DNA from: Owenia fusiformis | Taxonomy: Eukaryota > Annelida > Polychaeta > Sabellida > Oweniidae | NCBI GenBank assembly: GCA_903813345.2 | Contig: CAIIXF020000001.1 | Coordinates: 45,649,885-45,713,884, forward strand | Reading direction: 5' to 3' | Length of the DNA stretch: 64,000 bases | Part shown: positions 36,308-64,000 of the stretch, piece after piece | How the letters are laid out: each line of letters starts with the position of its first letter | Position numbering within the stretch: position 1 is the stretch's first letter | Program-made: the position numbers and the translations under genes | Notes under the pieces: model-generated | Database searches by the model: none | Told to the model about the DNA's origin: nothing | Seen by the model: the letters and a program-made list of their open reading frames with translations, nothing else

Positions 36308-38127
36308 CCTCTAGATGAAAATGCACCTTGTCTATTAAAGGCAATGGATACGATTTACATACTCCATAATGCATAGCAGATCAATATAATCTGTATTGAT
36401 AAGTAACTGTACAATTACGTCTGCCATGGGGGTCGAAATACATCATTAAAGGCGTTTCAGTGGCCCCGCTGAAAAAATGAGGAGGCCCCGCTGATACACT
36501 TGAACGTGCCAAAAACGTATTAATAACAATCACATAACATCATTCTATGGCAATATCGCAAATATATCTTCTGCAACTTCAGGCAGTTTGATCCATCTGC
36601 CAGCGTCGTCATAAAATTCTTAAATGCGTAGACTTTCTACATTTGTACTGTTAAATGTAAATTCTTCATAATTCAATGTTTCCAAGTAGTATACTTCTGA
36701 GGACACATATATTTCATTGGCTTGTTTGTTCTTCCGACTGTTCGTCGTTCGTGCATGCATTCATCCGTTTGTGCGTGCGTTCGTCCGACCTTCCGTTCGT
36801 ACGTGGGTGCGTGGGTGCGTGAATCTTATTGAATATCGCGTATATGATGCGTAAAATCAAGAACATTTATTCTTATTATGAAAATGAGGTTAAACTTTTA
36901 ACATTTCCTCCGATCTATTACTCATCACATTTCTTAGATGACCTATCTTATTCTGGAAAATGGCAACGAAGATCATAGTGCAGTTTTCCATTACAACCTA
37001 TCATAATATGTACTATATCAATACAGTATTTGCTGTTTTTTAGAATTGTATCAACAAATGATGTATTCATGAAACTGGGTACAATAGTGGATCATGCTGG
37101 GTACGATAGTGGGCGATTTTCACGGTATAATCTGGATTCACTCCAATTTGGAGGGACACTTGCTCCTGTTTTCAGCGGGACCTCCTCATGTTTTCAGGGG
37201 GGCCTACTCATGGTTTCAGAGGGGTCTTTGCTATATTGCTCCTGTTAGAAGCTGGGCCTTGAGGGATATGATAAAATTGAAATATATTTAGTGTTCTGTA
37301 AGAATTTAAGAAGTGAAACTGAATACATTTTTATTTCAGATAACTATCATTATTTCAACCACAGGACAATGTACATCCATACTAAGTTCAATCATGAATC
37401 CATCAAATAGTAAGCTTATTGTCTGTTCTGATTACTGCATTTTCAAATGGTTGACTGATGGTGCACTGTTTTATTTTGACTTATTTCAAAAGCCAGTGAG
37501 ACTACTTTCTGAACACACCGGGCAAAACTATGCACTGCCCAGAAATCTCTCTCAATTATTGCGTTACTGTCTTTCTTCAAGCTTGGTTTGGTGCGTCTCT
37601 GTATTATTTCCTTTAGTTGCTTTGGAACGAAACATAATTAAATTAGGTGCCTACGTAATGTTAACCACAATTTTGAATTGGATTAATTGTTACTTGTGCT
37701 ATTTAATTAAGTTTTTCCTTTAAAAAAACTTTTAAAGTTCTACTCCATAGAGAATAGCCGCTTCTATGATTCAATGTAAAAAATAAGGATTGGTCCGCTT
37801 GGTCACATTTTCAGAAGGTCCATCTGGAGCAAGGCTTTGGGTATGTATAATGTTTTATTTTAGTGAACATTTTCTCTTGTCGGCAGTTATTGTAGAAAAT
37901 CGTGTAGCCAGGCTCAAGTAGTGACTTTAGTCAGACGGAATATAAAATTGGAGTCCATGCACATCTTCTGAAAAATAAATCAAACATTGCGAAAACGCTT
38001 CAATAATACTGAACCTCAATTTGGACAGGGTGGGGTGTTATATGGGGCACTGGTGCCAAAAACGTTCATGCCGATGTCCAAAGGCAGCTATCCCGTGCAA
38101 AGATCAACATTTGATAATTCACTTACC

Positions 38128-38289
38128 CTAGCCCAATACAAATATTTTATCAAGCCATGTTTGTATGATGATGCTCCTACAACCCTCCAGTACTTTCCGC
38201 ACATTATCTGTGTCTACCGCGCACGTGTAGAAGTAACGGCAAAAATGACTGTCGTGCACAGACATCCGCCTCTCATCGTGCACGATAGC
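38128..38289 (-). CDS. G-alpha terminal exon with TCAV box and stop
   Basis: Encodes 53 residues with [20 protein letters not shown], matching the HFTCAVDTENIRRVF region of Gs-alpha (TCAV is the last guanine contact). It ends [17 protein letters not shown] then TAG at 38128-38130. A good donor sequence (GG/GTAAGT) sits directly after the stop, so 3' UTR splicing or an alternative C-terminus is possible. Confidence 0.92.
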   Translation of the reverse strand, partial: AIVHDERRMSVHDSHFCRYFYTCAVDTDNVRKVLEGCRSIIIQTWLDKIFVLG

Positions 38290-41200
38290 CTGAAAAAATA
38301 TAAACATATTTTTCGAATCTATTTACCGCAATTCGCACAAATCCTAGATATTCTCCTATTGTCCATCTTTTATTGGCGCATGGCAAGCATTCATACCAAA
38401 GTTCCCAATTTGTCACGAGGACACATCCTGCAGTGTGATTATATGTAGCTGCGAAACAACTCAATGTAACGAGCAAGCAAAACATCACTTTGACTATATT
38501 CTTTTTACACATGACTATTAAAACCATCTCATATTATATTGCATATCTTAGCTAAAAGCGAACGAAAAAAATGAGTAAACTGCCATTCGATGTGTTGAAT
38601 TTTGCATTTTATAATTTACATACCATGTACATATTTTTGATAAATGCAGCAGTTTTTATCACTTCTGGATTTGGGATTGTTTTGTTGAGGAGATTAATAT
38701 CAGCCTTGCGGGATATTGAAGATCCCCGTGACCTTGACCTTGGCCTCGTTGTATTGTCGTTACTTTTGGGACCGGATGTGTCGATGTTTGCCGGTTGTGC
38801 ATCAACGAACTCCCTAACTTCGTCATCTAAACAATCAAAAGTGGAACACTCGTAACTAGTAACGTACCAACTGAAGAAACAGTATTATAAACCATTCGAG
38901 ACTGTCCTTGCATTGTTACGGATATGTGACATATATGCATAGTATAAGGTGATGATAGACATGTACGTTTCAAAGCAGATGTCGTGATTTAATTGGAAAA
39001 TATTTTTTAATTGGAAAATAATTTTTCTCTTCATACCAAATAACTAATAAATCAACAAAAAGTTGAATCAAACATTGTTCAACCAGTAAAGTGCTATTCC
39101 TTTGTCGTTTATATCGATTCATCTGTCTATGAACGTCAATAGCAAGCATCTATTATTTGGTTGAATTTATTCATTAAATGATATGGCATCATGTATCCTT
39201 TCACTGAAATAAGAACACAATACACCTTTGTCACATCAGATTATTAGTTACCTGAAGGTGTGTAACTTTTGAAATTCTGGAGATGAGCATAATATGGTGA
39301 ATCTTCTGAGATCTTATCAGCTAGGGTCTGTAAACTTGTTCCGGAATTAACCTTTTCTTCTAAAATGTCCATCTTGTTCAGAAAAAGTATAATTGAGACG
39401 TTTTTTAAAAACCTGTAAACATAAATGAAGGATTACATCTATAGTCACTCCTTGGAAGCACTTGTTTATAAAGAACACAAAATATTTCAAGACGATATTG
39501 ATTCATTTTTATCTAAGCTTAATATCGATTTGATTAGTTAGTGATTCACGTAATATGATAATTTTGGCCACCTGTTATTCCAAGTTTGTTTGAAAGTGTC
39601 TAAAGATTCAATAAGCCTATTCCTTGTAGAGTCTTCTCTAAGCTGTAGGTCAAAGCTGCTCATGTCCGCCACAAATAGGACAGCAGTGCAACTTTCAAAA
39701 ACCTGGATCCACTTTCTCCGTTCACCTTGCTGGCCACCAACGTCATATACACTAAAAGTACAAATGAAACCGTTTGCAATGTAGTACCACCTAAGAGTGT
39801 AACAATCTCAAAGTAAATACTATTCGGTAGAAACTCACAAGATTACTCTCGTGTACAATTCACAATCATGAATATGCATACCATATTTAGTTTTTATTTG
39901 CAAACATTAATATTAGTTAATATTAGTATTCACCTAAAGTTGACATCGTGTGCAGCGTCTTTTAATGTAAAATCTATTTTGCTGATTCCAGTTGTAATTA
40001 CACGACATCTTAAAATATCCTGAAGCAGCAAAAGCATTATGGTTATTTTTATTTTCTCTAAATCACGCTTGTACAATTGTCTCCAATTTGATAAATAAGT
40101 GACCCGTGAATTCTTAATGTCATCGTTTTAATATTTTACCCTAGTAGCAATTACTATAAACAGTGTCATGATTTTTGGGCAATAGAAATGGCTGCCGTTT
40201 TGAAACGAGTCCAATTTTTTGGACACCACTTAGCGGACAATTGAAAATTTACAGAGGGACAACAAGACAGGCATATCAACGAGGGCGACGTAGTGGGGGG
40301 GGGGGGTCTGAGCCTTTGAATGGATTAACCCCAAAACGTCAGAAAAACTCCACAGCGTATCTGAAAAACGTGTTAATCAACTCAAAACGTCACTCTCGTA
40401 ACTTAGTGCAGCCTGATTGATTACAATAGACTACACCATGGGAGCTTATAAGTATACGAGAATTATGACAAATTATTATGAAACTGGAATTATGAAACTG
40501 GAATGACCAAAACAAAACTGGCTATCATCGTAGCATCTGATAATAACATGGCAATACAAAATATTTGCCTCGATCATATTTTACCTGGTCAGTTGGAATG
40601 TAATCTTCTCTCCTAATCGTTTCAATTTGGTCGAGGAAACTGAAAAAAGCACCAATAACTTTACCATAGAATTCGAATTTGAAACATGTGAATCAGTCGC
40701 TATTTATTTCTGTGTTCAAAGTATGATACCAATTAGTATCTATTGTTTTCAAAGTATCTATTGGTTTCAAAAGCATGATAGTTATTGGATACCTAGCTTT
40801 CTTACTATTTGGCACTATCTATGAGTTGATATTCGCTTGATCTACAGTAAGCTTCTTGTGTTCCTGAATCAGTCCACAATTTTAGCGAATGATCGTAAAA
40901 CTCCTGAAAAATAATGAAGACATATATAACTCCTCACTACCATTTATTCAAGTTCAAAATCGATCATCGATTACAGTCAGTCCACAATTTGAGCGAATGA
41001 TCGTAAAACTCCTGAAAAATTATGAAGACATATATAACTCCTCACTACCATTTATTCAAGTTCAAAATCGATCATCGATTACAGTCAGTCCACAATTTGA
41101 GCGAATGATCGTAAAACTCCTGAAAAATAATGAAGACATATATAACTCCTCACTACCATTTATTCAAGATCAAAATCGATCATCGATTCCAGTCAGTCGA

Positions 41201-44200
41201 CAATTTCTGCGAATGATCGTAAAACTCCTGAAAAATAATGAAGACATATATAACTTCTCACTACCATTTATTCTTGATCAAAATCGATCATCGATTACAG
41301 TCAGTCCACAATTTGAGCGAATGATCGTAAAACTCCTGAAAAATAATGAAGACATATATAACTCCTCACTACCATTTATTCAAGTTCAAAATCGATCATC
41401 GATTACAGTCAGTCCACAATTTGAGCGAATGATCGTAAAACTCCTGAAAAATAATGAAGACATATATAACTTCTCACTACCATTTATTCTTGATCAAAAT
41501 CGATCATCGATTACAGTCAGTCCACAATTTGAGCAAATGATCGTAAAACTCCTGAAAAATAATGAAGACATATATAACTCCTCACTACCATTTATTCAAG
41601 TTCAAAATCGATCATCGATTACAGTCAGTCCACAATTTTGGCGAATGATCGTAAAACTCCTGAAAAATAATGAAGACATATATAACTTCTCACTACCATT
41701 TATTCTTGATCAAAATCGATCATCGATTACAGTCAGTCCACAATTTGAGCGAATGATCGTAAAACTCCTGAAAAATAATGAAGACATATATAACTCCTCA
41801 CTACCATTTATTCAAGTTCAAAATCGATCATCGATTACAGTCAGTCCACAATTTGAGAGAATGATCGTAAAACTCCTGAAAAATGATGAAGACATATATA
41901 ACTCCTCACTACCATTTATTCAAGTTCAAAATCGATCATCGATTACAGTCAGTCCACAATTTGAGCGAATGATCGTAAAACTCCTGAAAAATAATGAAGA
42001 CATATATAACTTCTCACTACCATTTATTCTTGATCAAAATCGATCATCGATTACAGTCAGTCCACAATTTGAGCGAATGATCGTAAAACTCCTGAAAAAT
42101 AATGAAGACATATATAACTCCTCACTACCATTTATTCAAGTTCAAAATCGATCATCGATTACAGTCAGTCCACAATTTGAGAGAATGATCGTAAAACTCC
42201 TGAAAAATAATGAAGACATATATAACTCCTCACTACCATTTATTCAAGTTCAAAATCGATCATCGATTACAGTCAGTGCACAATTTGAGCGAATGATCGT
42301 ATAACTACTGAAAAAATAATGAGGACATATATACAGGGTGTCCGGAAAGTGAAGATACAAATGCTCTAATTTCAACAGAGTTACCTGTTGTGAGATGAAA
42401 TTGCTACAGATTGTAGAGTGACATTTTAACAATTTATCCTGCAACTGTCATGACAAATTGTTTCAAAATAAAAAAATTATGGTTGTTATGGTAACAGGAG
42501 TCGCGGGTATGTGGAGCAGCGTCACAATCATGTTTTATAATTCTTTTCTCCAGTTCATATCATCTTGACACTTTGTCATCTGTTGCTATCATATATCAAA
42601 TTATGTACCACAACAGCAAAAGGATTAGTACTGTAACATTATTTAGTCATTTTGGCATTACTTCTGTTATCCGGTATTATGTATTTCCCACCATTATCTT
42701 AACATTCTTGGTGCATTTTGACTGGAGATTCCAAGACCTTACAAAACCGCCGCTGCCCATTTCTAAGATTGCTGCTAACATTGGCTTCAAGCCGAATCTC
42801 ATTTTTAATGTGAACTTCTAACAAATATTGCTTTAAGATATTCATTCATACAAAAAGGTTTAATGTCAAGACATTCAATTGTGAGATTTGTTTTCTTTGC
42901 TTTGTGAATTGGTGCAATGACTGTGGAGGTGCACTATTGACTTTTCTATTAATCCAGGGACCCTTTTTCTAAGCACTTATATACTTTTTCTTTGATTATA
43001 CTGGTGACATAACAAAGTTGATATGTATCAATGATATCATTAAACTAAAGACAATATTATGGCAGCAAGAATACAATATTGAACAAAACAAAACATTGAC
43101 AGGAAATACCAAAATAAACACTGTTTCAAATGGTTATATTCTAGCAATTTATCGCAATTTAGTGATATCCTGGAACTGCTCCACATACCCCTCACCACTG
43201 AAACCATGACAACCGTAACTGTAACACGTTTAGACTGTATGTTATAAAAGTTGGTAGATGTATTGTAATAAAGTTCCTCTACAATCTGTAGCAGTTTCAT
43301 TACACAAAAACTAAAACTCTTAAAATTAGAGTATTTGTATCTTTACTTTCCGGACACCCTGTAACTTCGCACTATACCATTTATTCAAGATTAAAAGTTT
43401 TAGTTGAAACTCTCCTAGGTTCAAATACTGACGTTCAGTTAAATGAAAATGTATGTGAACAAATAATCATCTTGGTGGCAAAGTATGCATGCGGTAAAAC
43501 ATAGTCAAATTACTAATGTAAATATATTTGTTTTGTAAACAAGTGCGTGATACAGGGGTTGCCATTTTAGTAAAGGGTGTAAATACGTTTCTGTGCTTGA
43601 TACAGGGTATATTTAATGGAAAAGGTTAAATTATGATGTTGAATTATTGGTGTCTATCATATATTTAAGAACTGCCATCTATATATGAATATAAAGTTTA
43701 AATAACTAACGTGAACAAAAGATTAAGTAGATTCTGATTGTTTTGTTCTGAGAATGCTGCTGCCATCTTTGAATAAACTCTAAATTATCAATGATATAAT
43801 TATAATCTATTGTGATAACGAACACCTCCCAATCTGAATGTTTTTAACTGCACGGTGGCATTTGGATTAGACAGGTTTTACTGTATGAGTAATAGTAATA
43901 CTGAAATTAAAAAAAATCTGAAGGCCTAGTCAATCTATTTTGGGAAATATTCTCAGCTATTTGAAATGAAGATCAACTTTGTAAGAAGTCTCTATAATTA
44001 TTTTTTTAATTTATACAATAACATTATACTCAACTTTAGTTCAAATTCCAATGCTCTGGCCTTGGCTAATCAAAACAGTTCATTGCAATTGTTTCATCAA
44101 TTATTATATTATTATATTAATATATCATAATTATTTCACATGCAAATACTGTACTGCCACTAATATTTGATGCTGTTATCTTTCACAATTTTGCAATTTT

Positions 44201-45393
44201 GAAATTTTGCGGATATCAATTTTCGCTAATTATAAATTTTTTATAATTTTGTATCTATTTCTTTCACCATCATATCATTTCTCAAAAAAATTTCCAGCTT
44301 ATTTGATTAAATGTTTTTAAAACCAAGAAATATGAACTAAACTATTGAAATCAAGTGCTCACTTTAAATTTTTTTTATATTTTCTGTTTGGGAAAATCTG
44401 TTAGTTATCAGCTGCATTTTTGTCAGTCAAGATTTCTCTTTATCAAACCAAATCAAATCCAAGGAATGTTTAGTCAAATATCCAGTTGTTCAGGAATCGA
44501 ACTCAATTCAAAGAATGATTAGTTCCATAGTGTAAACATATACAACTTTGAACAATATTGGTATCAGCCATTATGTTACATTAAAAAAAACAGAATGTAA
44601 AACTGTAAAAGACTTTCATGTAAGCAGGAAATTTCTTGAAAGAATACTAAAGGTTTCGCAACAGAATTTAGACGGTCATATGTTGAATTGCAGAAATTTT
44701 CTGAAAATGTAAGGTGTGTATGTTAGGCCAATGCATTATCTAAAGGAAAAGTACTAATACAGATGATAAAAAAATTGGAGATTGAGACAGGGAAGGTGCA
44801 AAGACCCCATCAACATTTTTTTTCAAAAATGTTTTCCTGATTTTCAGTTCCTTCCATTTTTTTATAATGTTTTCACATTAATATGTTGCATTTGTAGACA
44901 AAGTTAACATACTAAAGAGAAAATATTTTCCTTTTAAGAGTTTATTTGTGTCTCCAAATGCAACATACTGATGCATAAAACATTTATAAAAATTGAGTAG
45001 AAGGGGAAATTTTAAATTCAACGAACATATAGGCCCACTGAGCATTTATTTTGCACAGGGCCTTTATTAGAAAGAACTCAAAATAAATGCCATTGGCTTT
45101 TATTAAGACTAAGAGGGAAATTGAAAACATTTTTCCCAAGGGGACAGGCATTTATTAAGAGGGAAAATAGCTTTCCCAAGCCAGTGGGTGTTTATTTCGA
45201 GGCGTATTATCAATCGAAGAGTTGACACATGGCCTTCATATACTCATGCAATAGTATCTATCATCTCTGATTGCACACTTCTGTTTTACCTTTCAAGCAT
45301 TCGATTTGGATTTTGGAATGTCATAAAGCTATGCAGTCAAAAGTAATCTTAATACTTTTTAGTGAAAATGCATTTATATTTAAATGCCATTGG

Positions 45394-45432
<39 letters not shown>

Positions 45433-48400
45433 AAAATGCAGAATCTTGCGAATGCAAAATCCTCGAAATCCGATCACCTCCACATCTGAATGTTTTTTTT
45501 AACTGGTCATGGTGTTTTAACTGGTCATGGTGGCATTTGGATTAGACAGATATTACTGTATAAGTATTAGACAGATATTACTGTATAAGTATAATAGTAT
45601 TACTGGAATTCCAAAAAATCATAACGCCTACAATGCTAGTAATATTAAGTGAAAATGCATTAATATTTTTTCAAAATCAAGAATCTTTCGGATGCAAAAA
45701 CCTCGAAATCAGACGTTTAAATCTGAATGTTTTTAATTTGTAGCGGTGGCATTTGGATAAGACAGGTTTTACTGTATAAGTATAATAGACATTAATAGTA
45801 TTACTGGAATTCCAAAAAATCATAAGGCCTATAGCAACAATCATGTGAACTTCAGGTCAAAATTCCAATGCTCCCTTGGCCAATCAAATCAGTTCATTGC
45901 ATTTGTTTCATCAATGCTCTCAATATCATAATTATTCCACATGCAAATACTGTACTACCGGTTAATTTGCGAGTTTAAATTTCATGAATTTTGAGAAATA
46001 CCAATTTTGCGGCCATTAAATTTTGCGGATATCAAAGGTTTAACTTCCATTATTCTCTGAATCCTCAAAATTAATTTATCTTATCTACAGTTATTACACC
46101 TACCCAATATCATATACTTTGGATAAGATTTACAATCTCTACACAGGCAATTTTTTCCATTACATTTTCTGTAAAGAATGGCTATCTTTAAAAAATCTTT
46201 ACGGAAATTCATTAAAGAAACTTTGCAGATTTGATACATTTGAAGAATCTGTACAGTTTTTCTTTCTTTAATGATTCTGCAAAGAAATCTCATTACAGAA
46301 AAAATACAGATTCAATGCAGAAACTGTGTGTGTGTTGATCTGTAAAGAATCAATAAAGAAATTCTCAACAGATTCTGTAAAGAAATAACAACATTGAAAA
46401 TTCTGTAAAATTGACTTTGTCATTGAAGATTTTGCAAAGAATACACTTTACAGAAAAATAGATTCAATTCAAAAAATGTATGGATGATGATCTCAAAGAA
46501 GCAATAAGTTACATCCAGGCCCATAACCTGGGGAAGGGGCTCAGCCATTACAGCCAACCCTTCTGATATCTCCTTAAAGATATGTGGACATATGTACCTT
46601 TTTGCCAAAAAAGTGTTGAAGGGTCTTAAAAGTGCTGAAGGGCATTAAAGCGCTTTTTTGGCCTTATTCTAAGAGAAAATTGGCCTTACTTGTAAAAAAA
46701 TCCTTGCAAGCGCAGAATATTTTTTGCCATTTGGTCCCCTCAAAGATTTGAGGGTTGAGGGGGGATGTCAGAGCTCCCAGATACCAAAAGCTGGCTGAAC
46801 ATCACTTCTGAAACTATCGAATATCACTTTGATGGTTTGGGGATTTTTTTCTAAAATTATATATGATAATGATATCTTGATCCACATCATGAAATATATC
46901 TTCACGTGATATTCGATGTATATCCTTGCAACCATGGGATAAAAGGTAGTTATCCACAAGGAGGGATTTGATATGGGGAATATCACAAGAATGATATCAA
47001 TATTTCCCGAGGGAACACAGTGTTTCGTCAATGGTCAGGGTACTTTTTGGAGGTACTAGGTTTGTCCCAACCTCCCAAAAGTACCCTGACCAATGACGAA
47101 TTGATACTGAAATAAGCCTAAAGCAGGTAAAATTAAAAAAATATATATAAAATTAGAGTCCATTTCACTGCTTCATTTCGTCAGTAGAACGGCAAAAATA
47201 AGAAATTGGGAGACCATTGTGCAATAATATATGGAAAAGTGTATTCATAATGTACATGAATGACATTTGTATATTTCAGATTTTTTAGTTTTTTGTGCAA
47301 TAAGCCTGTGCCGTCTTGTAATTTGAAGAATTTCAGCCATGTTAATCTTATTGAAAATAACATGGCAGAGAAACATCCAAATATAAGAGGCCACACACTT
47401 TATAAGCCAAACTAGAAGCAATCCAAGATATACAAATGTCATTCATTTACATTATGAATATACTTTTCCATATATTATTGCACAATGGTCTCCCAATTTC
47501 TTATTTTTGCCGTTCTACGACGAAATGAAGCAGTGAAATGGACTCTATACCCTCAATAAATCAATTGAAATTGTAAAAATTGAAATACTTATAATTAGGC
47601 TAAGCATTTTTTTTACTTCATATGATATTAAGTAAGCTTTAATTAATATTTATTTAAATTCCAGAAATATTTTTTATAAATACTGAAGTACTAGTAATTC
47701 TTTTAGTTTTTAACGGAGAGAAATCCCCAGGATCGATGTCTGATATATAAGTTAACGTTTCGTTCACTACACACATCCTGGTATCTGGGAAATAGAATAT
47801 CGCCCATTACAAAATCAAGTAAAGTTTTATGTTCGGATTATACATTGATCCAGAAGGTCAGTATACAAGGTGTCATAGATGGGATTTAGCCGTCAGACAA
47901 TATAACTAACTATCAGGAGCCTGTAGGCATTAGGATTTTAAGCTGAAAAGCACCGAAGAAGATAATATTCCAGATAGAAGTCAGAAAATTCACTGAAATT
48001 ACAGCGGAAATTCCCCAAAATATTCGTAAGCTTACAACATCTCACAATAGAATGGAGGAGGAGGACAGGAAGTAAACTTTATGCTTCACAGATCAGCTAT
48101 GTTTCCTGTGATATTAGAGAGGTTTCGCATAACGTTTTTTAGCTCCACGGATCCGTAACGTATTTACCAGATTGATGCGTAGTCAGTTCAATTTTTTACG
48201 TGAAATGATACGGAAAACACGAAAAATGAGCCTTTTGATGATGTAGTTTAGTGAAGCTGAGGAAACCACCTTTTGGTTTACAAATTACAATGGAGCACCA
48301 ATTTGCAGTGGGACTGCCTGTACAGCTGTCAGCTGTACAATGATTTTCCATGATGGTGCTATATTATATAATGTGTCTACTGTACAAATGCAGGGGACTT

Positions 48401-51400
48401 ATTCTCATCCAGGAAAATGCACTGTCTGATCACCTTCACAATGACAATACTACAGTATTAAAGACCAAATAAACAAAAGGGGGAAGAAAGTCCTGAAGCA
48501 TCTCTGGTTATACAGATAGTTGAATGATTGTGTTGACGAATAATTGTTGCTTGTAACCTACAAGTTGAAAGAGCATGCATGTGTGTCTGTTAAAAAATAA
48601 ACATTTATTTAAAATGAAAATTATACATATCCTTGGGTGCGAGGCAATCTTCTATAGTTGTCATCTTATCAAAACTATGCAATGGGGGCTTCAGTTCATT
48701 CAACAATTCTAATCCTATGTACAGTTGAACAAAATGAAGCTCAAATAAGCTCATCCTGAATTATTTGAGCAAAATGAAGCAACATTACAATTGTGAAAAG
48801 TTATCATGTCTGTTATAATTGCTCAGTCACAATCACATTTTATTTAGATTATGAAATGTAGGAGTTCACTTGCAGATTGTGAAGAAATAGCAGGACTATG
48901 ATTAAATGCTATGGCACCTTTAGGAAGTGTATGGTTATCAGTTGGTTTTCTCTTATCGCTACAGTCATGTCATCCAGAAGAGCCAGATATTTGCATTTTC
49001 TTCATTCTGGGGCTCGTTTTATGCATGCTAAGAACTATAGTTGTCTCACAAGCAACTAAGTTATTCACTGTTAAATAAAAAATAGTAAAACCGAAGTAAA
49101 TAGGCGAATATTACGTTGGCTACCGAAATGTACTCCAAATATGCCTATTGCATTTTTATAAGGATGTTTTATCAGATTATAATGACTTATGTGACTTAGA
49201 ACTTTAAATTTTGTAATTTGGTTTAATTGCATATTTATTTGTATATTTATTTTATAAAAATCCATGTTTTATAGACATCCATGTTTTGTTTTATATTTCA
49301 GAATATTACACAAATTAATGTATATTTATTTTATAAATTAAATTTTATGTAAGACATATATAAAATATCCCCGGGATCAACACTCGTTCAGTATAAAATA
49401 GTACTCTTGGCGGAGGTTCGCTGGGGGTCTTGAAAAAATGAATTTTCCTCTTCCACCCTCCCAAATTTAGAGGTGTATGATTTATGACTTAAACATCATG
49501 TATTTTATTTAATGTATATATGTTTATCATAGGGCGGTTTATATATTGCCTTGCATTGTAAACAACTTACATTGGCAATATGAATAATTTAATATGTTGT
49601 GAAGAAGATGTGTTTTGTAATAAGATTTATTAATTAAAATAAATCCGCTCATTTTAAGCCCAACATCCATGTTTTGTAATATTTCAGAATATTACACATT
49701 AATAAACATTTAGTAATCTGATTATTATGTAAGATGAATAAATGACTGATATAAACTTGGTACCATTATATGTTCAATAGATTGTTAAAGGAAATTAATA
49801 ATGTTGTAAGCAAGTTTTGGTTAGAAAGTTCACAATTTTACTGTGGTGTTAGTTTGTAAACAGTCATTTGTGGTCTGAATTGGTCATACTTTCAGAAATA
49901 GATGGTTTCAATTTTTTATTTGCTTAGAGTATATTATAATATTGTACTGTTCACATGATATATAGAGACAGGTTTTTATTTGGAGGTGTTCATCAAGACA
50001 CTTATTTGCTGTTTACACAGAAATCTGTGGTGTTATATTTATATGTTATATTTATATCATGACTGTGAGGATCAATAAAAATAACTCAATAACCATTATA
50101 GAGACAAAGGAGTGTTCACAGTATATTCATGATATATAGAGACAGGTTTCCACTTAGAAGTGTTCACCAAGACACATATTTAGTATTTACTGTATATAGA
50201 GAAATCTGTGGCATTATATTTATATGTTTTGTTTATAATTATAATCATGACTGTGATCAAGAAAAATAACTCCATAAGCATTACAGAGACAAAGGAGCGT
50301 TCACTGTATAGCCATGATATATTGAGATAGGTTTTCACTTAGAGGTTATATATATATGATATATTGAGATAGGTTTTCACTTAGAGGTGTTCACCAAGAC
50401 ACATATTTGTTGTATACAGAGAAATTTGTGGCGTTATATTTATATGTTTTATTTATAATTATTATCATGACTGTGAGGATCAAGAAAAATAACTCCATAA
50501 GCATTACAGCATTCCAGAGACAAAGGAGCGTTCACTGTATAGCCATGATATATTGAGATAGGTTTTCACTTAGAGGTGTTCACCAAGACACATATTTTGC
50601 TATTGACACAGAAATCGGTGGCGTTATATTTATCTGTTTATATATAATCATGACTGAGGATCAAGAAAAAATAACTCCATAAGCATTACAGAGACAAAGG
50701 AGTGTTCACTATATACAGGGTGACCGGAAAAAAAGGAGACCATTGAAATAGGCAATATCTCCTAAAATAGACTAGTGACATCAATGAAATTTTGCATACA
50801 TCAGGACAGTTCTATGGAAATTTGTTCCTGAAAGTGTCAATACAAGCAGTCAACTGGTTCAGGAGCTATGATCATTTACATAACATGCTCCAAATAGGCG
50901 CAATTGAGACCAACGCAGAGCTGGATACATTTGGCAAATACCCTTACATATTCCGACCTTGTTATGGCATTACATTTAGCATTTATTGCCACCTTTAGGT
51001 CAGCAATTGTCTCAGGATTGTTTTGGTACACATTGTCTTTCAAATTGCCCCACAAAAAGAAATCAGGTGGATTCAAATTTGAGGTGTATGGAGACGAAGC
51101 TTATCTGACCTATGGCTTCTGACTCAGTGATCCCAGTCAGTTACAGTATCATCCTAAGGAGGTTTTGGGCAGCCCTTGGTTTTCATATGGGATTTAATTG
51201 TGCCATATAGTGGTTTTAGTAACATGGCACTATGCCCAATACCTAAAGTGACTCTTAAGATTTGGTAAATCAGCACTTTGGCAACAGGATGATGAACCAC
51301 ATGTCAGATAACCCTTCATTGCCATTACAGCCTAGACTTGAATCCTGCTGATTTCTTTTTGTATGGATATTTGAAAGACAATCTATACCAAAACAATCCT

Positions 51401-54400
51401 CAGACTATTGTTGACCTAAAGAAGGCAATCACTGCTATATGTAATGCCATAATAATGCCATAATAATGCCATAGAGGGCAGAACATGTAAGGGTAGTTTG
51501 CCATATGAATCCAACTCTGCGTTGGTCTCAATTGTGCCTATTTGGAGCATGTTATGTAAATGATCATAGCTCCTGAACCAGTTGAATGCTTGTATTGAAA
51601 CCTTCAGTAACAAATCTCCATATAACTGTTCCAGTGTATGCAAAATTTCATTGATGGCACTTGTCTAGTTTAGGAGAAATTGATTACTTCAATGGTCTCC
51701 TTTTTTCCGGTCACCCTGTATATAACCGTGATATATCCATGATATACAGAGACAGGTTTTCACATAGAAGTGTTTACCAAGACACATATTTGCTGTATAC
51801 ACAAATATTTGTGGTGCTATATTTATATGAGGTTAAACAAAAAAGGATTCCATAAACATTACTAAGGGGTGTTCATTGTATCCATGATATACAGATTCTA
51901 ACACATAGAAGTGTTCACTAAGACGCATATTTGCTGTATACACTTTAGATCACATGTAAATTGTATTGACAAAGACTATTAATAAATATAAATCGATTAA
52001 CCATAAATAAAATCTTTTGTTATTGAAGGCCTTTACTGAAGTTTAACAGAATGATTAAAATAACTTCAAAGATTTATCAACGAATGCATAAAGAACGTGT
52101 AAAGAATCCATAAGGAAAGCAGCAGTCTGTCAGGAATATGTAAAGAAAAAGTAGAGAATCTTTACAAAAACTCTATTGAATCAGTAAAGTTTGAAACTTA
52201 TATTTACAGAATAAATGCAGTGTCATTACAGATTCTGTAAACTCGTTTCTTTATCGAAACATTGCCGTGATCAAGTCCGAACAGTTTCATTACAGTTTTG
52301 ACAGTAAAGAATCTGTATGGATTTTTTATGGAAATTGTGATGGAAAAAATTGCCTGTGTAGATCTTAGTCAATGGCATGTTGCACCTCAGCCTTTAATTG
52401 GCGATATTCGCGACTATTAATTTTCGTGATTTTTACACAATCGCGAAAAGCACGAAACTAAATTGCACGCGAAAAATATCGGGAGTACAGTACATTGAAA
52501 CCATACACTCTTATATTTCATAAGAATTTGCAATCAAGCCTAACAAATCTATTGGCAAAATATTAGAAGGCCAGCAAATGTACACATGCTAAAGTGATGA
52601 AACTTTAATGAATTTTAATTTTGCCTATACTGATATGTGTTAAACTCTATTTGGGTTAGATTTATTCGGCTACACCCTCTACTTACAGCCTTAACATGCC
52701 CCCTATCGGCTATCACCCGCTTCAAAATCATAACAGGTTCCTTTATATCTTCCTTTATCTTCTGTTTAAGAAAAGCTGTTAGCTATCAGCTGTATTTTTG
52801 TCAATCAAGATTTCTCTTCATCTGTGAATTACCCAGCGAGAAACCAAAATGGCAATTTTGATGGAAAGACACAAAGTACCAGTCAAAATCTCTGAAGATT
52901 TCCGGGCAAACAATGGCAGCTCTCCCAGTTAGGTTTTAGACTGTCTTCTCATATTTTGTCAATTTTATTCAAGTATTCAAGTATTGTTTAGAGTTGTGCG
53001 TTCAACATATTCGAGAAGTCAATAGCTATAATAAATCTGCAGATTTTGCTCGCATTTATGTAAGCTTTTCTCTTTTGACGGATACTTTGTGTCTTTCCTT
53101 GAAATCATGACAGGTGTAACTGATCTACTGAAATCAACTTCAAGTGCTTTAATTACTACTATCTCCCAATGTGAGCTACATTAGTGCTTTTTGTTGAGAA
53201 AATATGTAAGTTATTAGCCGCTTTTTTGCCGATCAGGATTTAAATTCTCTTTATCTGTCATGTACCTAGCAAGATTCAGAGATTTTGACTTGTACGTCAT
53301 GTCTTTCCGTCAAAACTTCCATTTTTGGTTTCTTGGTAAAGAGTAGCTTCTCAATGTATAATGAGAATTTGCTGTTCGGCACAGAAGCACCTTTTAATTT
53401 TTTTCGATTTTCGCAAGGAGGATACTAACACAATTTTGAAGCGGTTGATAGGGGCTCTAAAGGCTGTTCTAACATATCAGTCACAGCCTCTGAAAGAGCT
53501 AGATCTAAGGCTCTAGCTTTAGGCTAGTCTAAGTCCTATAGATCTAGTAGTCTAGGCCTAGAGTCATAGCCCAGGCATAGGCCCGCAAAAATGTAAAGAA
53601 ATAAAGCTTACAGCATGTTCTATTTAAGTGAATTTGACTCATGTTATACATGTTCCGGGCCTATGCCTAGTATAGTCCCGCAGGACGAAGAAGATAGAAT
53701 GTAAAAATCAAATTGAAAATCAAAATAATCGAACGAAAAAAAATTGAAAAAGTTGAAAATTCGATTTCGATTCAATTTGATTTTCTGCCATTATAAATGA
53801 AATACTGTACTTACCAACATGTTTCTCGGATATATATGTTGTTCTTACTTTATCTTCGCCGAAGATCGATGTTTATTTATATATAACAATCGAATAATCG
53901 ACATAATTCAAACTCATCACTACGACACAAAAATATATCACTTTCGAAACCATGTAAACTGCTAAGATGACGTCATTTATATCCGGGATTGCTTTGCAAA
54001 CTCCACACAACAGACTGTCCCATCTTTTCTCCTGCTTTCTCCCGATGCAATTCATACATTACTCGGAGATTACTGTCAAACGTTCCAAGTTTTACAATTT
54101 TAGCATGTTTATTACGATCTAATTCCTGCCAGTATCAATGAATAAATCTATTGACCAACAGATTGGAAATATGTATTCCAGCGATACCCTCATTTTGACG
54201 AAAGAATGGTACAAATATGTCCACTATTTATCGAGATATCGTGTAGAAAAATTGAAGAAAGACATCGCTTAAGAAATTTCTATTTCTAGACTGAACTGTT
54301 CACGCTCGCAAGTGGCATCTCCAACTCCATATATGGGCAAAAAGGTGGAGTTAACAATAAGCAATGCAGGGATTGACACGATTGACACGAAGAAGTCTCG

Positions 54401-57400
54401 ATGAATCTCGCTTAAACTCCGCCCCTTCTTCGTGAAAAATCACGTGAATTCCGGCTTTTGCTGGGACATATCCGGGCATCTCGGCTTCGAACCCAATCAG
54501 AAGTTTCAATTTTGACTGGCGCCGCATACATTATCTCAAGTCTCACCCAATATTTTTATGTATACGTTAATAATTGTTTGTAAATAACTGCTTGTATAAT
54601 TATTTTTACAAAAAGCTCTACTTCTCACTACCATTTATTTACGATTAACATCGATCATCGATAAAACCTTAGTAAATATGACACATGTGGACTGGCATTG
54701 ACTTGTATGACAATTACCTGAGGGGGATCATCAGTACCTCTATTGTCTGCATATGCCATTATAAACTCTTTGCTCTTAGCGATGTTCATATCAGCCAGTT
54801 GAATTCCTAGCTCTTCCATCGCAGATGTATTGTAATAAAGTACCTCCACAATCTGTAGCAGTTTCATTACACAAAAACTAAAACTTTTAAAATTAGAGTA
54901 TTTGTATCTTTACTTTCCGGACACCCTGTAACTTCGCACTATACCATTTATTCAAGATTAAACGTTTTAGTTGAAACTCTGACGTTCAGTTAAATGAAAA
55001 TGTATGTGAACAAATAATCATATTGGTGGCAAAGTGTGCATGCGGTAAAACATAGTCAAATTACTAATGTAAATATATTTGTTTTTTGTCCCTCTGTAAA
55101 TAATTGTTTGTAAATAACTGCTTGTATAATTATTTTTACAAAAAGCTCTACTTCTCACTACCATTTATTTACGATTAACATCGATCATCGATAAAACCTT
55201 AGTAAATATGACACATATGGACTGGCATTGACTTGTATGACAATTACCTGAGGGGGATCATCAGTACCTCTATTGTCTGCATATGCCATTGTAAACTCTT
55301 TGCTCTTAGCGTTGTTCATATCAGTCAGTTGAATTCCTAGCTCTTCCATCGCACCAACTATCGTCTGGAAGTATAAAAATGAAATAGAGTCCGAGGTCGA
55401 TCTCAGTGGCTCAAACAAACAGAGTCGATAAGTTTTAACATTACAAAAATGACGAGCTTTTATAGTTTAAAAGTTAGTTCTAGTTCAGGAGTACGGATGC
55501 ACACTCTACGGATCCCAATCCAGATCCTCATTGGTGGTAGGCTCAATAAAATTACGAGTACATTCGTTGAGCCTTGAAACCAATGGGAGGAATCTGGCCG
55601 CGCCCCGTGGCATACTCTAAGTTACGTCTTTCTCCTTTAGCTTAGATGATCGGGAGATCTGATAGACCAGAATGGATTAGAAGGGTAAATATACCTTATC
55701 ATGCTATTAGAAGGCTTGAGTCACCTAAGTTTTCAATGACATCTATACTTGAGAAAATATTTCGTCAAGATTGCTGCCAGATAGATACAAGAGGAAGAAA
55801 ACCCCAGAGCTAAGAGATGCGTTTGTTCGAATTTTAACTGGCTAATTTCTGAATACCACACATCGTTGTGCTGTTTTAATCGATGCTAGCAAGCTGTATT
55901 GTTACGCGGAATATGGCATATATTCATGGTTGCGCGGTATTTGTGATACGGGTGAATATGTTATACTCACCTGTGGTATATGGCATATTCCGCAGGTGAG
56001 TATGGCATCTTCCACAGTGAATATGCGATACATTGATTTCGGTGAATATCCTATACTCATCTGCGGACTATATCATACTCACTTACGGAATATGGCAGGT
56101 GAGTATGACATATACCGCAGGTGAAAACGAGATACAGAAAGGCTTGATTTGATTGGTCGCGATAATCGATTCTAAATGTAAAACTACGTTGGATTACCAA
56201 CATAGTTAGTCCTCGACTTCGTCTCGAGCCAATACAGAATATCTCGAGTACAATATATCCTGTACTGCACTTCTAATCATTCAAACGCTTATAGAGTAGT
56301 TTTCCTCTAACATAGAGCTAGATAGAAAATACAATGATGCATTGTGATCATCTATATAACATTCTAGCCATTTCTATATGTCACAACAAAGTGAATCTTG
56401 ATTAAGTGTCGTCTTGTTGAAAGTCAATTGAGCTACACTCCCCTCCAAAAGTTTGGCAAACAGAAGTTGCCCTATGGACGATATCTCGCCATCTTTAATG
56501 CCTGTTTATGTTCGGCAATTAAATTTTAACAAATTCATCACATTTAAAGTTTGATATATTGTAAGTTTGTAGCTGAGATTGTAAATTTAGATTTAAACAT
56601 GATCAGGCTTAGCGCACATATAATCAAGACTTCCGGTGTCATACCGGGCTGTGATAGTTATTACGATTAAACTAGTAAAAAGAATAACCTTCCGGAGTAG
56701 CAAATTCTACGTTTTATCGAATCAAAATAACCAGCTGGCAGAAATATTGTCTCGTTTTGGCAAAATCTATGTACCATATTTGATATTCCTCGTGTAGAGG
56801 TCCCCTGACCACCAAGCACCAGCCGATAAGTTTTGGACCAAATCGAATGACTGGTATTTGTGTCTTCTTAAAATTCCTTCTTGAGCACATGTCCTTTCTC
56901 CCGCCTAGCATATAAAATTTAAACTATATCGTTTGACGGAAAATATTGGAAAGCTTCCTAATTAGTATAGACGTCTTTTGTTCATAAGACATTAGCCTAT
57001 AAAGTAAAGATCAAATCCGATATCACCTATTCAAAATGGCGGCCATTATGAGAGCACAAAAATCAAAATCTGTCGACCGATATTTGAGTAATATAGACGA
57101 ACGAGCGAACTTATGAACGGCTTCTTCCTCAATTATAACAAATGACAAACATTTGTTCAAAATGGCTACTTAAACAACTTTTTTTAACATTACATATATT
57201 AAGTAAATATCGTCGTTTATGCATTTCAAACAAAGAAAATATTCATGTTTACTACTATTTATTTTTAAAAATTATGACCTTGCCATTTAGCCAACCCCTG
57301 GATATTTATCGTTTTATAGGCATGTCATTCTTTGGAACTACTTTGACACCACTTGAACAAATTAGAGTCTCAAAGGACACTTCATTAGGTATATCTGAGG

Positions 57401-60400
57401 CCACTACTATTAGGATAATATGTGTAAGACTTTAATCCAAAGAACAGAATCTTAATAACCTAAAATCACAGGCTGATATCGAAAGATTTGTCCGCTGTGA
57501 CGGAGCATGCTATTTTTCATAAAAAACACTGAGTTACTTCACGATTTATTTTTTAACTCATATCTTTCGTTATACCATACAAAATTACTTACTCCATGCA
57601 ATGGATATATCATTTGCGGGTAACTTTCACTTCTGTTTGAAGTCCAATTACGCTTGGAAGAAATGCTATTGAAAATGGCGCCGGAGTATCATACTTCTAA
57701 ATGTAACATTTCTTGTTTAACTTTCTAATGGCACGATATAGTGACACGATAATATTTACACATGGTTTCAGCATAACTATGAAGGTATAAATGAGATGTT
57801 GATGTATTTGGTCTTTTTAATTCTTTTGTAAAAAATAATGTTTAATTTGTTTGTCCGCTGTGACGGAGCAGTTGCAAATGTGAACTGTGAAAATGCTCCG
57901 TCACAGCGGACAAAAAATATTAATATTATTTTTTATAAAAAAATTAAAAAGACCCAATGCATTAATATCTCATTAATACATTCAGAGATATGCTGAAAAT
58001 ATATGTTAATATTATCGTGTCACTATATCATGCCATTAAAAAGTTAAAAAAGAAATGGTTCATTTTAGAGTTTGATACTCTGGCGCCGTTTTCAATAGAT
58101 TTTACTCCTAGCGTTATTGGACTTCAAACAGTAGTGAAGGTTACACGCAAATGATATATTAGACAGGTTCCAATTTCAGAATATCTCAAGGGAAAGAGTT
58201 TTTGAGGCATTTTTTAGAAAAAGCAACAGACCCATTTTTTCTGGATCAGTTTTTCATGCTGATAAAGATATTAAAAGATGACAGCTCAACGGGGTGGTCA
58301 CGACACTGCATTTTAGCGTTTTTACCCCCCTAGGAAATTATCTTAGGGGTACTATAATATTAGTTCATAACTCAAAGGATATATAAACTATTGTTCTGAG
58401 TTCTACAGCATACATTGTTAGTACAGAGATGAATACTATCCTAAAGTTATAGGTTGATATCTTTGTTGGTTTCGGAAAAATACAATTAATAAGAAAAAAA
58501 TATGCAATTTTTGTCATTTTTTTCTTGCTTATTTTATATTTGTAGCTTCAAGCAAAATATGATAACATTAACAGCTCAAAGTAGTATTCTAACAACATTC
58601 CCAAGCTATGTGTGATATTGTAATACATCTATTGTAGTGATGAAGTACTATTTTGTAATTTTAATATGACTTTATAGTGCCCTACCCCTGGTAAATAGAA
58701 GAAAGTTGGTGTGGTTTTCTTCTGGTTTTAACATTTTATTGACTTCTTAGTTGAAGATAAAATCAATTCTGTCAGTTAACCACGAGTAGCTTTACAATGG
58801 TTAACTATTCCCATTAATAGAGGGTTGGGACCTCAAAAATACCAGAACTGTTAAGTGGCATCCTTGGGCATCCCTCTTCAGAGCATTTTCCTTATACTCC
58901 GATGAAATCTGCAGGAGATACTATAAGAAACCTATATATCTAAGATACTAATGAAGATACTGAATTCAAATTTTCAATTTTCAGGATTTGGTCCTGGTAT
59001 GATAGGTAATCTGTATGACAAAAATGACGAAAAGAAAAAACTCTGTTGCCATAGTAACAAGAATACCACACTATTTGTTTCCTGAGAAATGTGTTTTAAG
59101 AGGTTTTGTCAGTCTCTTCATATTTTTAATTCTAAATATGTCTACAATGTGGGATGATTAAAATTATGGTAAAGTAATCTTTTCTATTGTTCTCTAAAAC
59201 AGAAGTTGCTATGGCGACACATACCTGTAGATCATAGAAAAAATGCTGGGATGATCGCTTTATTTGTCAGGAAATTAAAATGGAAACTTAAAAATGAGTT
59301 TCTTCCCACAGAATAGCATTAATTTGGTAGACCATGGCTGACACGCACAAGAGAAAACGTTTATCAGTTCTATGTCATTTTGTTTTTTTTGTTTTTTTTA
59401 TCGTGATCTGGGACACCTAATGCCTAATCTTCTCCAACTGCAAAGGAAGGCAAGATTTTAATAATGAACATTCATATATCTCAACAAATATGGCCTAAGA
59501 TTTGGACAATGATGAGGAAACTCTGAGGGAAAATTAGACGAAACATTAATGTGAGTGGTCCAAAAATAACACTAACATATTTTGGAAAAGTTATGCTCTC
59601 AGATGAATCAGTGCTCATTTAAGGATAGTCTGAATCAGGTGAATTTTTTAACCTAATTGTAACCCTCCCCCAAAACCCCCAGATTTTGACGAAATTGTCG
59701 AAAAGTGGCAAACAACATTCATTAAAGTTGAATATGGCTATTTCGCTTCTATGTCATAAAGATATGATACGATCTCAGGTCAATCAATAAATTTCACAAG
59801 TGACACTCTATCTTATGAAGAAAATACTATCGTATTTGAAGACATGTCAAAAATTTGGTGGAAATAAATTGTGTCACTCCTGATTTGACCTGCAAAGGTT
59901 CAAGTAAGCTATCACAATCAATTTCAGACAGTTATATCTTTGATTATGACTATTTCCTGACCATGAAGACAGGTATACAGGGATAATAAAGTCAATCAGA
60001 CTCGGAGATATTTCACTAGCAATCAAGTATCAATATATTTTTTCAAAGTTGTTGACCTCATTTTCACCAAAAATGCAATCATTTTAACAATGTTTAATGC
60101 ATTACTGTTCTTTATTTTAATGTATCAAATAGCTCTTGAAAGGAAAACTTAATTTCCCCTAAGATTAGTGTTCCCCATGTTATTTCCCCTTTGAAAAAAT
60201 TCATGCTATCCATTGGTTTCAGTTCATTTTGGTCATCTAAATAAATGTCTTTAAAGTCCCTGGAGCAATCCACTTTTCCTCTTAGGAAATAGAACATGTC
60301 TCAAAGCATATTCTAATCGTGCATTCAACAATATAATTAAAGGTTGCATCTTTGGTAAATCTAGGTCATCATTTTTAGTAAAAAGTATGTTGATTGGGCC

Positions 60401-63400
60401 ATTCCCTTTAATATCCCTTAGGTCTGATTAATCATGATTATATTTACTTTTCTTGAAGATAATGAATAGATCTAAAAGATATACCCATGTTCATGGTCAC
60501 AAAATATTCATAATTCAAGTTAGAATGGACCTTTTTCCATATAAATGAAAAATAGATGGCATCATGGGTATTGGTAGAGCTTGGGTAGGGCTAGAATATG
60601 TGACATGTAAATGTATTGCCAGAGTCACTTAATTTCTTGATTTAAGAAGTAATTCCATTAGGATCAACTTAAAACATCATTGGAATGTAACTATATGATC
60701 TTATTGACATGTGGATTGTGATTTCACATTAAAATTGTGATCCTTGTAAGAGTTAATGAACTTTTAAAGGTTTTTCAGCATTGTGTCAATGGGGATTTAG
60801 CCCCACCTTTTTTAGACAACCAGAAAATCATTAGAATTTGAATAAAGGGGAATAACAGTGCAAATCAAAGTCGTTTTGATAGAGAATTACTCACAGAATT
60901 CAAATATGCCATCAGATGGAAGAAAACGTTAGTTTTTAATGGTTAAAAATGCAGATCTCCTAAAATCTCATTAAAAAAGGATCATTGTCTGAAGTTGTTT
61001 GCGATAACCTACATGCTCCTTTATAACATTATTATGTAAATACTATCAAATGCTTTAGTCATGACAGTTGAAGTAAACTGAAGTCTCTTGGTATTTAAAT
61101 GCAGAATCAGATCTATGTAGAGTAAACAAAATTGAAAGCAACATGTACAGTTGACCTACCAATGTATTTCTTACAATCTCAAATATAATATCTCCCAAAA
61201 GATCCACAATATATTATTAATTGGTAATGTTGTTTAAAATTCAAAGTGTAAAATGGGGGAAATGTTCAAATTCTCCCAAATAATAATAAATAAGTTACAC
61301 TAAGTTATACAAGTGTGAGGCACCATCGCTGGGAAAGTTATCTTTGGTTAATAAAAAAGATTCTTAGCTACTTTTCTAACATCTGGCTGTGATGCATCAT
61401 GGCTTAATGAGGACTCTGCTATATGGTCAGATGATGAGAACTAACAGTTTTACGGAACTTTTGCCATGTTTTGCACATTGTAAATGACCCTTCTGAATGG
61501 GTTGTAAAGGTATATACCAGGAGGTATATATGGCTCAAATGACTTGTGCCCTAGTCCATGGGGCACTGTAGTACATTACTTGTGCATGATGACCACCATA
61601 GTCTAGTTGCTCAAATGAGATCAATACTCCTATTCGCGATAAGAGTTCAGGTGGTAATTTACATAAATATCTCCCATGATGCATCGCTTTGGAAGGGACA
61701 AATTTTCATTGGCCCGCCGAACGAGTGATTACTCTGAACGTTTCTCAGCTTCTGATCTTCCATCAGCCCTCAAGCATAGTTATATAATCCAATCTATTCA
61801 ATAATCAGAAAGATAATCGGAGATTCAAAGTAACATTATTTATATTTTTCGATATTCGATGGCGTCTGAGCAATTTCTGGGATATCAGTGACGTCACTGG
61901 AATTGGACAGCATTTTTAACTACACATTACTTCGGATTTGGGGATTATAGCTCAAATTGCTTTGTCATATATCTTAATTACATACATACCTATCGTTTGT
62001 GCAAATGAAACTCTACATAAATGTTTAATAGAGCCGCAGTGCGGCATTGAAAATAGCACCCCTGTGTAATCCAATGGGAAAGAACCCGGATGTAGATGAA
62101 GTTGTACCATACATGAGAGCTCTTCAAACGAGAGGTTGCTAAACTGAACGAAATTAAACGTTATCGCGTATTGGTATATTGATGATTATAATGTTTAGAC
62201 TTTATGTAAATGTCCTCTCTGGTATGTGATTACACTAGATTTCATTATGATACATGTACTAAATTGAAAACTTACATATAAAATATCTTAAGTCCTATAT
62301 TCTAGTAATAAATGAATTAGAATGTCACCTAACATTTGATGATGGTATGAATTTATTGATTTGGTGTCTATCAATACATGTTTCTAACTTAATGCTGCAA
62401 AATGATAAAATTCACCACATCCACTTTCTTCAATTTTCCAGGGGTAGGGCACTATAAAGTCATATTAAAATTACAAAATAGTACTTCATAACTAAAATAG
62501 ATGTATTACAATACCACACATAGCTTGGAATGTTTTTAGAATACTACTATGAGCTGTTAAAGCTGTCATATTTTGCTTGAGGCTACAAATATAAAATTGG
62601 CAAGACAAAAATTGCGTATCTTTTTCCTGTTTATTGTATTTTTTCTGAGACCAATAAGGGTATCAACCTATAACTTTAGGATAGTATTCATATTTGTACT
62701 AGCAATGTATGGTGTACAACTCAGAACAATAGCTCATATATCCTTTGAGTTATGAACTAGTTTCATAGTACCCCCAAGAATATTTTCCTAGGGGGGTAAA
62801 AATGCCATAATTCAGTGTCGTGACCACCCCGTTGAGCTGTCATCTTTTAATATCTTTATCAGCATGAAAAACTGATCGAGTAAAAATAGGTCTGTTGCTT
62901 TTTCTAAAAAATGCCTCAAAAACTTGAATTATTAGAATTGGAACCTGTCTATATCCATTGCATGGAGTAAGTAATTATCTTTGATATAACGAAACATATA
63001 GGTTAAAAAATAAATCGTGAAGCACTCTTAGTGTTTTTATGAAAAATAGCATGCTCCGTCACAGCGGACAAATCTTTCGATACCAGCCTGTGAAAATGGA
63101 TATAGAAGAAGAAGAAGTCATAATTCTGCATTTGTCACCCTACCCGGTGTTATAGTGAATCGCTTTGTGAATACTTACTAGAATTGAGTCTTTGAGATTC
63201 TTCCGTATGGCAGATATATGAGACAACCTCTCTCTAAAAAGTAAGCGATGTTAGTATTAACTGCTGCAAATAATAGTGTAGAAGATGAGAATGTATTTTA
63301 AATAACCTATGATGGAAAAAAGATTTCTTCATCTTAGAAATAACGCACATTTGCATATTTCTCTCAGTGTTCATTGTTTCTGAATAAAGAAATCAAGACG

Positions 63401-63929: not shown

Positions 63930-64000
63930 ATGATGTGACAGTCAGTTCACTCGAATGGGGATCGAACCCACGACCCATTACGGTCGAGACGACCCATTAC
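63930..64000 (-). repeat. tRNA-derived SINE-like sequence, cut by the window end
   Basis: The minus strand reads GTCGTGGGTTCGATCCCC, a pol III B box, followed by ATTCGAGTGAACTGAC. The 5' part with the A box would lie beyond 64000. Confidence 0.45.

Follow-up and report, generated by a model that had tools for sequence, protein, structure and literature searches.

A fourteen-unit minisatellite carrying a 3' splice site in a Gs-like G-alpha gene of the annelid Owenia fusiformis

How does a gene reach the right 3' splice site when that site stands last in a row of fourteen near-identical copies? The question is raised by a 64,000-nt stretch of DNA from the annelid Owenia fusiformis (the window), in which an intron of a Gs-like gene for the alpha subunit of a G protein (G-alpha) ends in an array of 108-bp units, each carrying the acceptor of the following exon and the first bases of that exon. 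An earlier note on this DNA had proposed such an array of about fourteen units, each with a polypyrimidine tract and a CAG acceptor, and 14 units at an exact spacing of 108 bp were indeed recovered. We analyzed a single assembly of this species (the window and the 498-Mb assembly to which it belongs) on the basis of sequence and annotation. The array is probably best explained as a minisatellite that arose where an exon of an apparently working gene begins, at its 3' splice site and first bases, and that is, in the main, tolerated.

The array and its host gene

The array and the gene that contains it are composed of the following features, all on the reverse strand:

40867..42333, reverse strand: array of 14 tandem 108-bp units, delimited by Tandem Repeats Finder (TRF), acceptor spacing and unit variants
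38126..63755, reverse strand: Gs-like G-alpha gene with ten exons, its 5' end outside the window
63755-63683, reverse strand: exon, predicted, outside the public protein
63233-63179, reverse strand: exon, predicted, outside the public protein; start ambiguous with 63227 (6 nt)
55248..55364, reverse strand: exon B, ending in DDPPQ, with donor CAG/GTAATT at 55247 (the slash marks the splice junction)
40806..40903, reverse strand: exon C, 98 nt, present in public protein P0001, with donor ATA/GTAAGA at 40805 and array unit 14 as its acceptor
40639-40585, reverse strand: exon of the same gene
40019-39934, reverse strand: exon E of the same gene
39751-39572, 39412-39252, 38826-38624 and 38289-38126, reverse strand: exons of the same gene

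TRF described the array as 13.6 copies of 108 bp with 95% match and 0% indels (40869-42333). The first exonic base of each unit lies at 42307, 42199, 42091, 41983, 41875, 41767 and 41659 (units 1-7) and at 41551, 41443, 41335, 41227, 41119, 41011 and 40903 (units 8-14). Units 1-13 provide decoy acceptors, and unit 14 provides the true acceptor of exon C. Each unit is made of 71 nt of intron end, including the CAG, and 37 nt more, 35 of which match the exon; the shared exon prefix (GAG...GGACTGA) is thus slightly longer than the 32 bases or so proposed earlier. In the consensus sequence, taken over all 14 units, the intron end terminates in TATATATGTCTTCATTATTTTTCAG and the first 35 nt of the exon, GAGTTTTACGATCATTCGCTCAAATTGTGGACTGA, follow; individual units depart from this consensus at 0 to 7 places, unit 1 at more. 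In units 1-13 the exon prefix passes into CTGTAATCGATG (CTGGAATC in one unit), which is the start of the next unit, and it is followed by TTCAGGAACACAAG in unit 14 alone, so that only the last unit enters the full exon, as had been suggested. Head-to-tail units of this length and identity, well within the tens of bp or more that define the class, give the array the structure of a minisatellite. A 23-base pattern from the spacer was matched 13 times in the window, 12 times exactly and once with a single mismatch, whereas 100 shuffles averaged 0. The 498-Mb assembly yielded no further copy of the array in a search that scored only the best candidates (two here) and skipped very common words; the query matched itself and two 43-bp pieces of the same intron. 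A search of Rfam at the gathering threshold gave 0 matches. The opposite strand does hold the open reading frame of 471 codons to which attention had been drawn. It carries no weight: of 5000 random 108-mers drawn from this intron, 2279 would likewise leave at least one frame open when tandemly repeated, and we ruled it out as a gene on this ground.

The gene model was obtained with tblastn and human G-alpha-s followed by inspection of splice sites, the second exon (63233-63179) being the best-scoring candidate between its neighbours. The ten exons are separated by GT-AG introns and form one open frame of 396 residues. This product matches PF00503 at E=1e-88, which upholds the earlier assignment of the exon to a G-alpha gene, and the 32 residues of exon C by themselves match solved G-alpha chains (best 4.1e-7, with G-alpha-s next). 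The P-loop, the switch regions and the guanine-binding NKxD and TCA motifs are conserved in a multiple alignment, as in G-alpha subunits. The best match outside Owenia (P0002) reaches 52%, and named matches, many of them molluscan or other lophotrochozoan proteins labelled G(s) alpha (e.g., Elysia G(S) alpha), reach 50%. The Capitella protein P0101 is 40% identical by BLASTP and 49% identical in the multiple alignment, compared to 49-54% for four others, and looks like a canonical Gs by its QYELL end. We call the gene Gs-like, a presumably divergent relative of G-alpha-s, from alignment identities rather than from a tree. The portion of the gene inside the window looks intact. A supposedly decayed exon noticed by eye near 40360 was rejected, the real exon E being at 40019-39934.

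Acceptor choice and the fate of decoy splicing

The proposal that the last acceptor is the one chosen agrees with the annotation: the Owenia fusiformis protein P0001, which is 100% identical to our predicted product over 83% of its length, joins DDPPQ to EFYDH...SAKY once and then continues into FLDQ. All 14 acceptors retain the CAG and have 12-14 pyrimidines within a 17-nt stretch, and because they are near-identical there, the intron side hardly separates the true site from the decoys. The exon side does distinguish them. Use of the last acceptor would be expected because only unit 14 opens a normal-sized 98-nt exon with a donor of its own, and because only behind unit 14 does the exon continue, together with whatever enhancers it may contain. 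Exon definition would therefore be the simplest reason for the choice, and the spliceosome would mostly pass thirteen acceptors and take the fourteenth, a step for which the annotation is our evidence.

Donor scores, computed with a scoring matrix, bear on the same point. The true donor of exon C (ATA/GTAAGA) scores 5.3 and the nine own donors of the gene 4.6-8.5; the candidates nearest to the decoys are GTAATC (1.4), GTA/GTGAGG (4.7) and GTGAGA (4.3). These candidates would delimit mini-exons of 37 nt, ending in ACT/GTAATC, or of 74 nt, ending in GTA/GTGAGG, the latter leaving an intron of 34 nt.

Splicing to a decoy leads to a stop in silico for 13/13 decoys under each of the three routes that we modelled, within 0-15 codons. 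In simple extension, units 2-13 read 15 codons and then stop, so that the in-frame TGA earlier attributed to all thirteen decoys holds for 12 of them; unit 1 (42307) instead meets TAG immediately. When the 37-nt mini-exon of units 2-13 is joined to exon C, TGA follows after 12 codons, and the 74-nt route from these units stops after 15. Skipping of exon C stops after 5 codons (in silico). Messages spliced to a decoy would then be destroyed or would give a truncated protein.

We also considered an RNA hairpin that hides the decoys, and discarded it. The fold of unit A looked striking at first sight, but against 150 shuffles the self-folding of neither unit type is significant (z = -1.36 for unit A and +0.93 for unit B; the types are defined below), and controls gave z of -1.0 for the true unit with its exon and a mean of -0.66, with a lowest value of -3.45, for 25 random 108-mers of the intron. 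Predicted local accessibility did not distinguish the true acceptor from the decoys. The spacer also contains an inverted match to the acceptor, a weak signal, with 12 of 1000 shuffles scoring as high.

History of the array and of its intron

Shared variants divide the units into type A (2, 3, 5, 6, 8, 10 and 13) and type B (4, 7, 9 and 11), with unit 12 mixed. A three-unit pattern is common to 2-3-4 and 5-6-7, and a two-unit pattern recurs in 8-9 and 10-11. The mean difference between units is 3.2 at lag 3, 4.7 at lag 1 and about 3.6 at lags 2, 4 and 5, a modest signal that suggests expansion partly via multi-unit steps. Among the unit pairs, 4/66 are identical, and several units hold private variants; these variants, together with the two- and three-unit patterns, disfavour a simple duplication made in assembly. 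The array can be traced to a tandem duplication of the segment that runs from the intron end to 35 nt inside exon C. As the sequence shows, that duplication left a non-exonic stretch at the junction, the exact event being our reconstruction. Growth would then have proceeded inside the intron, partly by two and three units at a time, as the alternation of A and B variants indicates. The spacer of the unit resembles 43 bp just within the 5' end of the intron between exons B and C (86-88%) and may be partly derived from that region.

Besides the array, the window holds three features that the earlier note had missed: an element inside unit 1, a partially duplicated exon B whose copy includes the donor, and a six-donor satellite in the gene CTDNEP1. 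The first of these divides unit 1:

42334..43361, no strand assigned: non-autonomous DNA-transposon-like element of 1,028 bp within the unit-1 spacer; terminal inverted repeats of 188 nt (76%), duplicated TA target
43362..43396, reverse strand: 5' part of unit 1, TTTTAATCTTGAATAAATGGTATAGTGCGAAGTTA, separated by the element from the remainder of the unit

The interval first given for the array, 40806..42333, left this 5' part outside. When the flanks are joined across the element they read GTTATATATG and match the other units, which represent the empty site. The element is later than the first duplication because units 2-14 are without it; as the empty site shows, it entered at a TA in unit 1. 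Between unit 1 and the consensus there are differences at 9/94 aligned positions and three gaps, some of these at an uncertain edge. Among the best 40 of 489 candidates scored in the assembly, at least 30 near-full-length matches were recovered, the element itself included; contigs C1-C12 all have such matches, as does C490, and the other copies are 85-91% identical. No open reading frame of at least 120 aa was found inside the element. With terminal inverted repeats, a target duplication, many copies and no frame the size of a transposase, it resembles a miniature inverted-repeat transposable element.

The intron between exons B and C measures about 14.3 kb and contains two further copied segments:

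54718..54823, reverse strand: B', a partial tandem copy of exon B with a second intact donor, CAG/GTAATT, at 54717
54823..55085, reverse strand: duplicate of the unit-1 flank together with the initial portion of the element, matching 43256-43534 (6 substitutions in 263 aligned positions and one 16-nt gap)

The donor at 54717 is a decoy donor for this intron. The tandem copy includes the end of exon B and the start of the intron (54566-54823 versus 55096-55353) and is 98% identical, with 5/258 positions differing. In an event later than the insertion of the element, part of exon B, its donor and the 263 aligned bases of unit-1 flank and element were copied, and the exon B and unit-1 flank pieces were probably close together at that time. 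If so, most of 43535-54565 seems a later arrival. This interval, about 11 kb of intron seemingly entered after the duplication with 2% divergence, has local repeats of its own (e.g., 49954-50715). Large inverted repeats at 57466-58715, 62414-63093 and 47154-47547, in introns of the same gene and at 84-91% identity, are possibly further transposon copies. Elsewhere in the window, a 281-aa open reading frame (25748-26593, reverse strand) resembles a membrane protein by eye and has no Pfam match, and at about 63950-64000 (reverse strand) a GGGTTCGATCCCC box, also seen by eye only, suggests a short interspersed nuclear element derived from tRNA.

A second array, competing explanations and known systems

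A second splice site in the window, this time a donor, has also been multiplied:

6337..6655, reverse strand: six-donor satellite, 6.1 copies of 52 bp at 99% (TRF), made of the 3' end and donor of CTDNEP1 exon 6

Six identical strong donors, CCCAG/GTAAGTG, stand 52 bp apart at 6605, 6553, 6501, 6449, 6397 and 6345, the first of which (6605) is the true end of exon 6 (6720-6606). This exon matches solved CTDNEP1 at 5.6e-12, seven exon matches in the window cover residues 2-244 of human CTDNEP1, and the exon 6 junction has a normal sequence in the annotated Owenia protein P0121. Reading past the first donor in the exon frame meets TAA within a few codons. Two occurrences of the motif AAGTGTT, one exonic and one at the donor, are separated by 52 bp and offer a plausible slippage point. 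After the acceptor array, this is the next best-scoring TRF array with at least three copies in the window, a two-copy 231-bp repeat in a G-alpha intron scoring slightly above it; the two best-scoring arrays of at least three copies thus both start at the edge of a coding exon.

That the acceptor array is mainly tolerated baggage, with some dampening of output possible, is the reading we consider probable, and the CTDNEP1 satellite supports it as a parallel case in which the annotated protein is likewise normal. Several observations weigh against this reading. P0001 is an annotation that may be partly prediction-based, and it begins within exon B in letters common to B and B', so that it is silent on the upstream exons and on which donor (55247 or 54717) is used. 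Furthermore, GTGAGG, at 4.7, slightly outscores the lowest of the gene's true donors (4.58). A protein search for decoy isoforms, a weak test with only 2 candidates sharing words, found nothing at E <= 0.001; decoy transcripts could be destroyed and therefore unseen. A role as a copy-number rheostat, in which decoys would divert a fraction of transcripts into stop-bearing messages and the number of units would set G-alpha output, is unlikely, if less so than the remaining alternatives. It fits the stops that follow all 13 decoys and the near-identity of their acceptors to the true one, and it has a precedent in the intronic variable number tandem repeat (VNTR) of TERT (PMC3948165), but that repeat acts by RNA pairing instead of decoy sites. 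Few mutations are present in the array, so that 14/14 intact acceptors are hardly evidence for or against this role. We consider it doubtful, by a shade more, that minisatellites recurrently arise from splice sites in Owenia genes (14 acceptors in this gene and 6 donors about 35 kb away) and that the acceptor array is a variable bank of poison sites whose unit number sets the fraction of premature stops.

The duplicated segment does supply splice signals (an acceptor in 14/14 units and GTAATC in 12/13 decoys), and units could be mini-exons placed before the next acceptor, on the tandem-duplication route to new introns. GTAATC is kept in all but one decoy, GTGAGG or GTGAGA occupies the 74-nt position in 13/13, and in potato the gain of an intron is reported to have followed duplication of an intron-exon segment that held a cryptic GTAAG (PMC4974935). 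This birth of introns or exons is nevertheless very unlikely here: GTAATC scores below the nine own donors, the 74-nt route would have to skip a unit to avoid its 34-nt intron, the two mini-exon routes reach stops, and the public protein has no such insertion. We regard with equal scepticism a pseudogene or unexpressed gene in which the array would be irrelevant to splicing; divergence from G-alpha-s, the duplicated fragment of exon B and a public model truncated at its start would fit it, but ten exons with an open frame and GT-AG sites and the conserved P-loop, switch and NKxD/TCA motifs speak for a working gene. Least probable of all is an assembly artefact in which the reference copy number is wrong. 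Long near-identical arrays are error-prone, some unit pairs are identical and the assembly is our sole source for the copy number, but this array is only about 1.5 kb and fits within one long read, its units show private variants and a higher-order pattern, and its junctions at the unit-1 element and at both flanks are distinct.

Comparison with known systems places the tolerated minisatellite among partial relatives. New introns have been described as arising by tandem duplication of segments that carry splice signals (PMC4974935). The potato RdRp, ATP2A1 and fission-yeast 24-bp repeat cases resemble ours in having tandem copies of splice signals within a gene, with decoy donors and acceptors arising together (PMC4974935). 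Unlike them, the Owenia gene has 13 extra copies, no annotated new intron and stops in the modelled products; its duplicates are intronic and its annotated protein is unchanged. In a study of internal tandem repeats at exon-intron boundaries of human segmental-duplication genes, manual inspection left 27 identified intron modifications (PMC2812944). These repeats also lie across a splice boundary and are able to change splicing, but they vary between paralogues and may create novel introns (PMC2812944), whereas the Owenia array occupies one annelid locus and is apparently removed whole with the intron. The VNTR of TERT intron 6 is likewise an intronic minisatellite whose copy number affects splicing, at least nine 38-bp repeats being required for the major non-functional isoform (PMC3948165). 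Those repeats lie more than 1 kb from exons and act by RNA pairing (PMC3948165); in Owenia the splice site is the very thing repeated, and self-folding of the unit is not significant. The array shares with ordinary minisatellites a short unit (108 bp, about 95% alike), multi-unit expansion and a single locus, and differs from them in being built on the boundary of a coding exon. Among the titles and abstract openings listed in searches of an open-licence library, with most subscription papers outside, we found no array of this size on one splice site. Splice-site duplications and boundary repeats are known, and what appears to be new is a 14-fold array of a single site in an apparently working gene.

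To our knowledge, most work on competition between splice sites has used engineered constructs with a few repeats of one site. The Owenia gene is a natural one that presents 14 acceptors with near-identical intron sides and stops after all but the last, and six identical donors in a nearby gene add a natural donor case. The locus is consequently a natural test of the choice between near-identical splice sites, and it indicates that a duplication at an exon boundary can persist when it expands on the intron side and the exon is spared.

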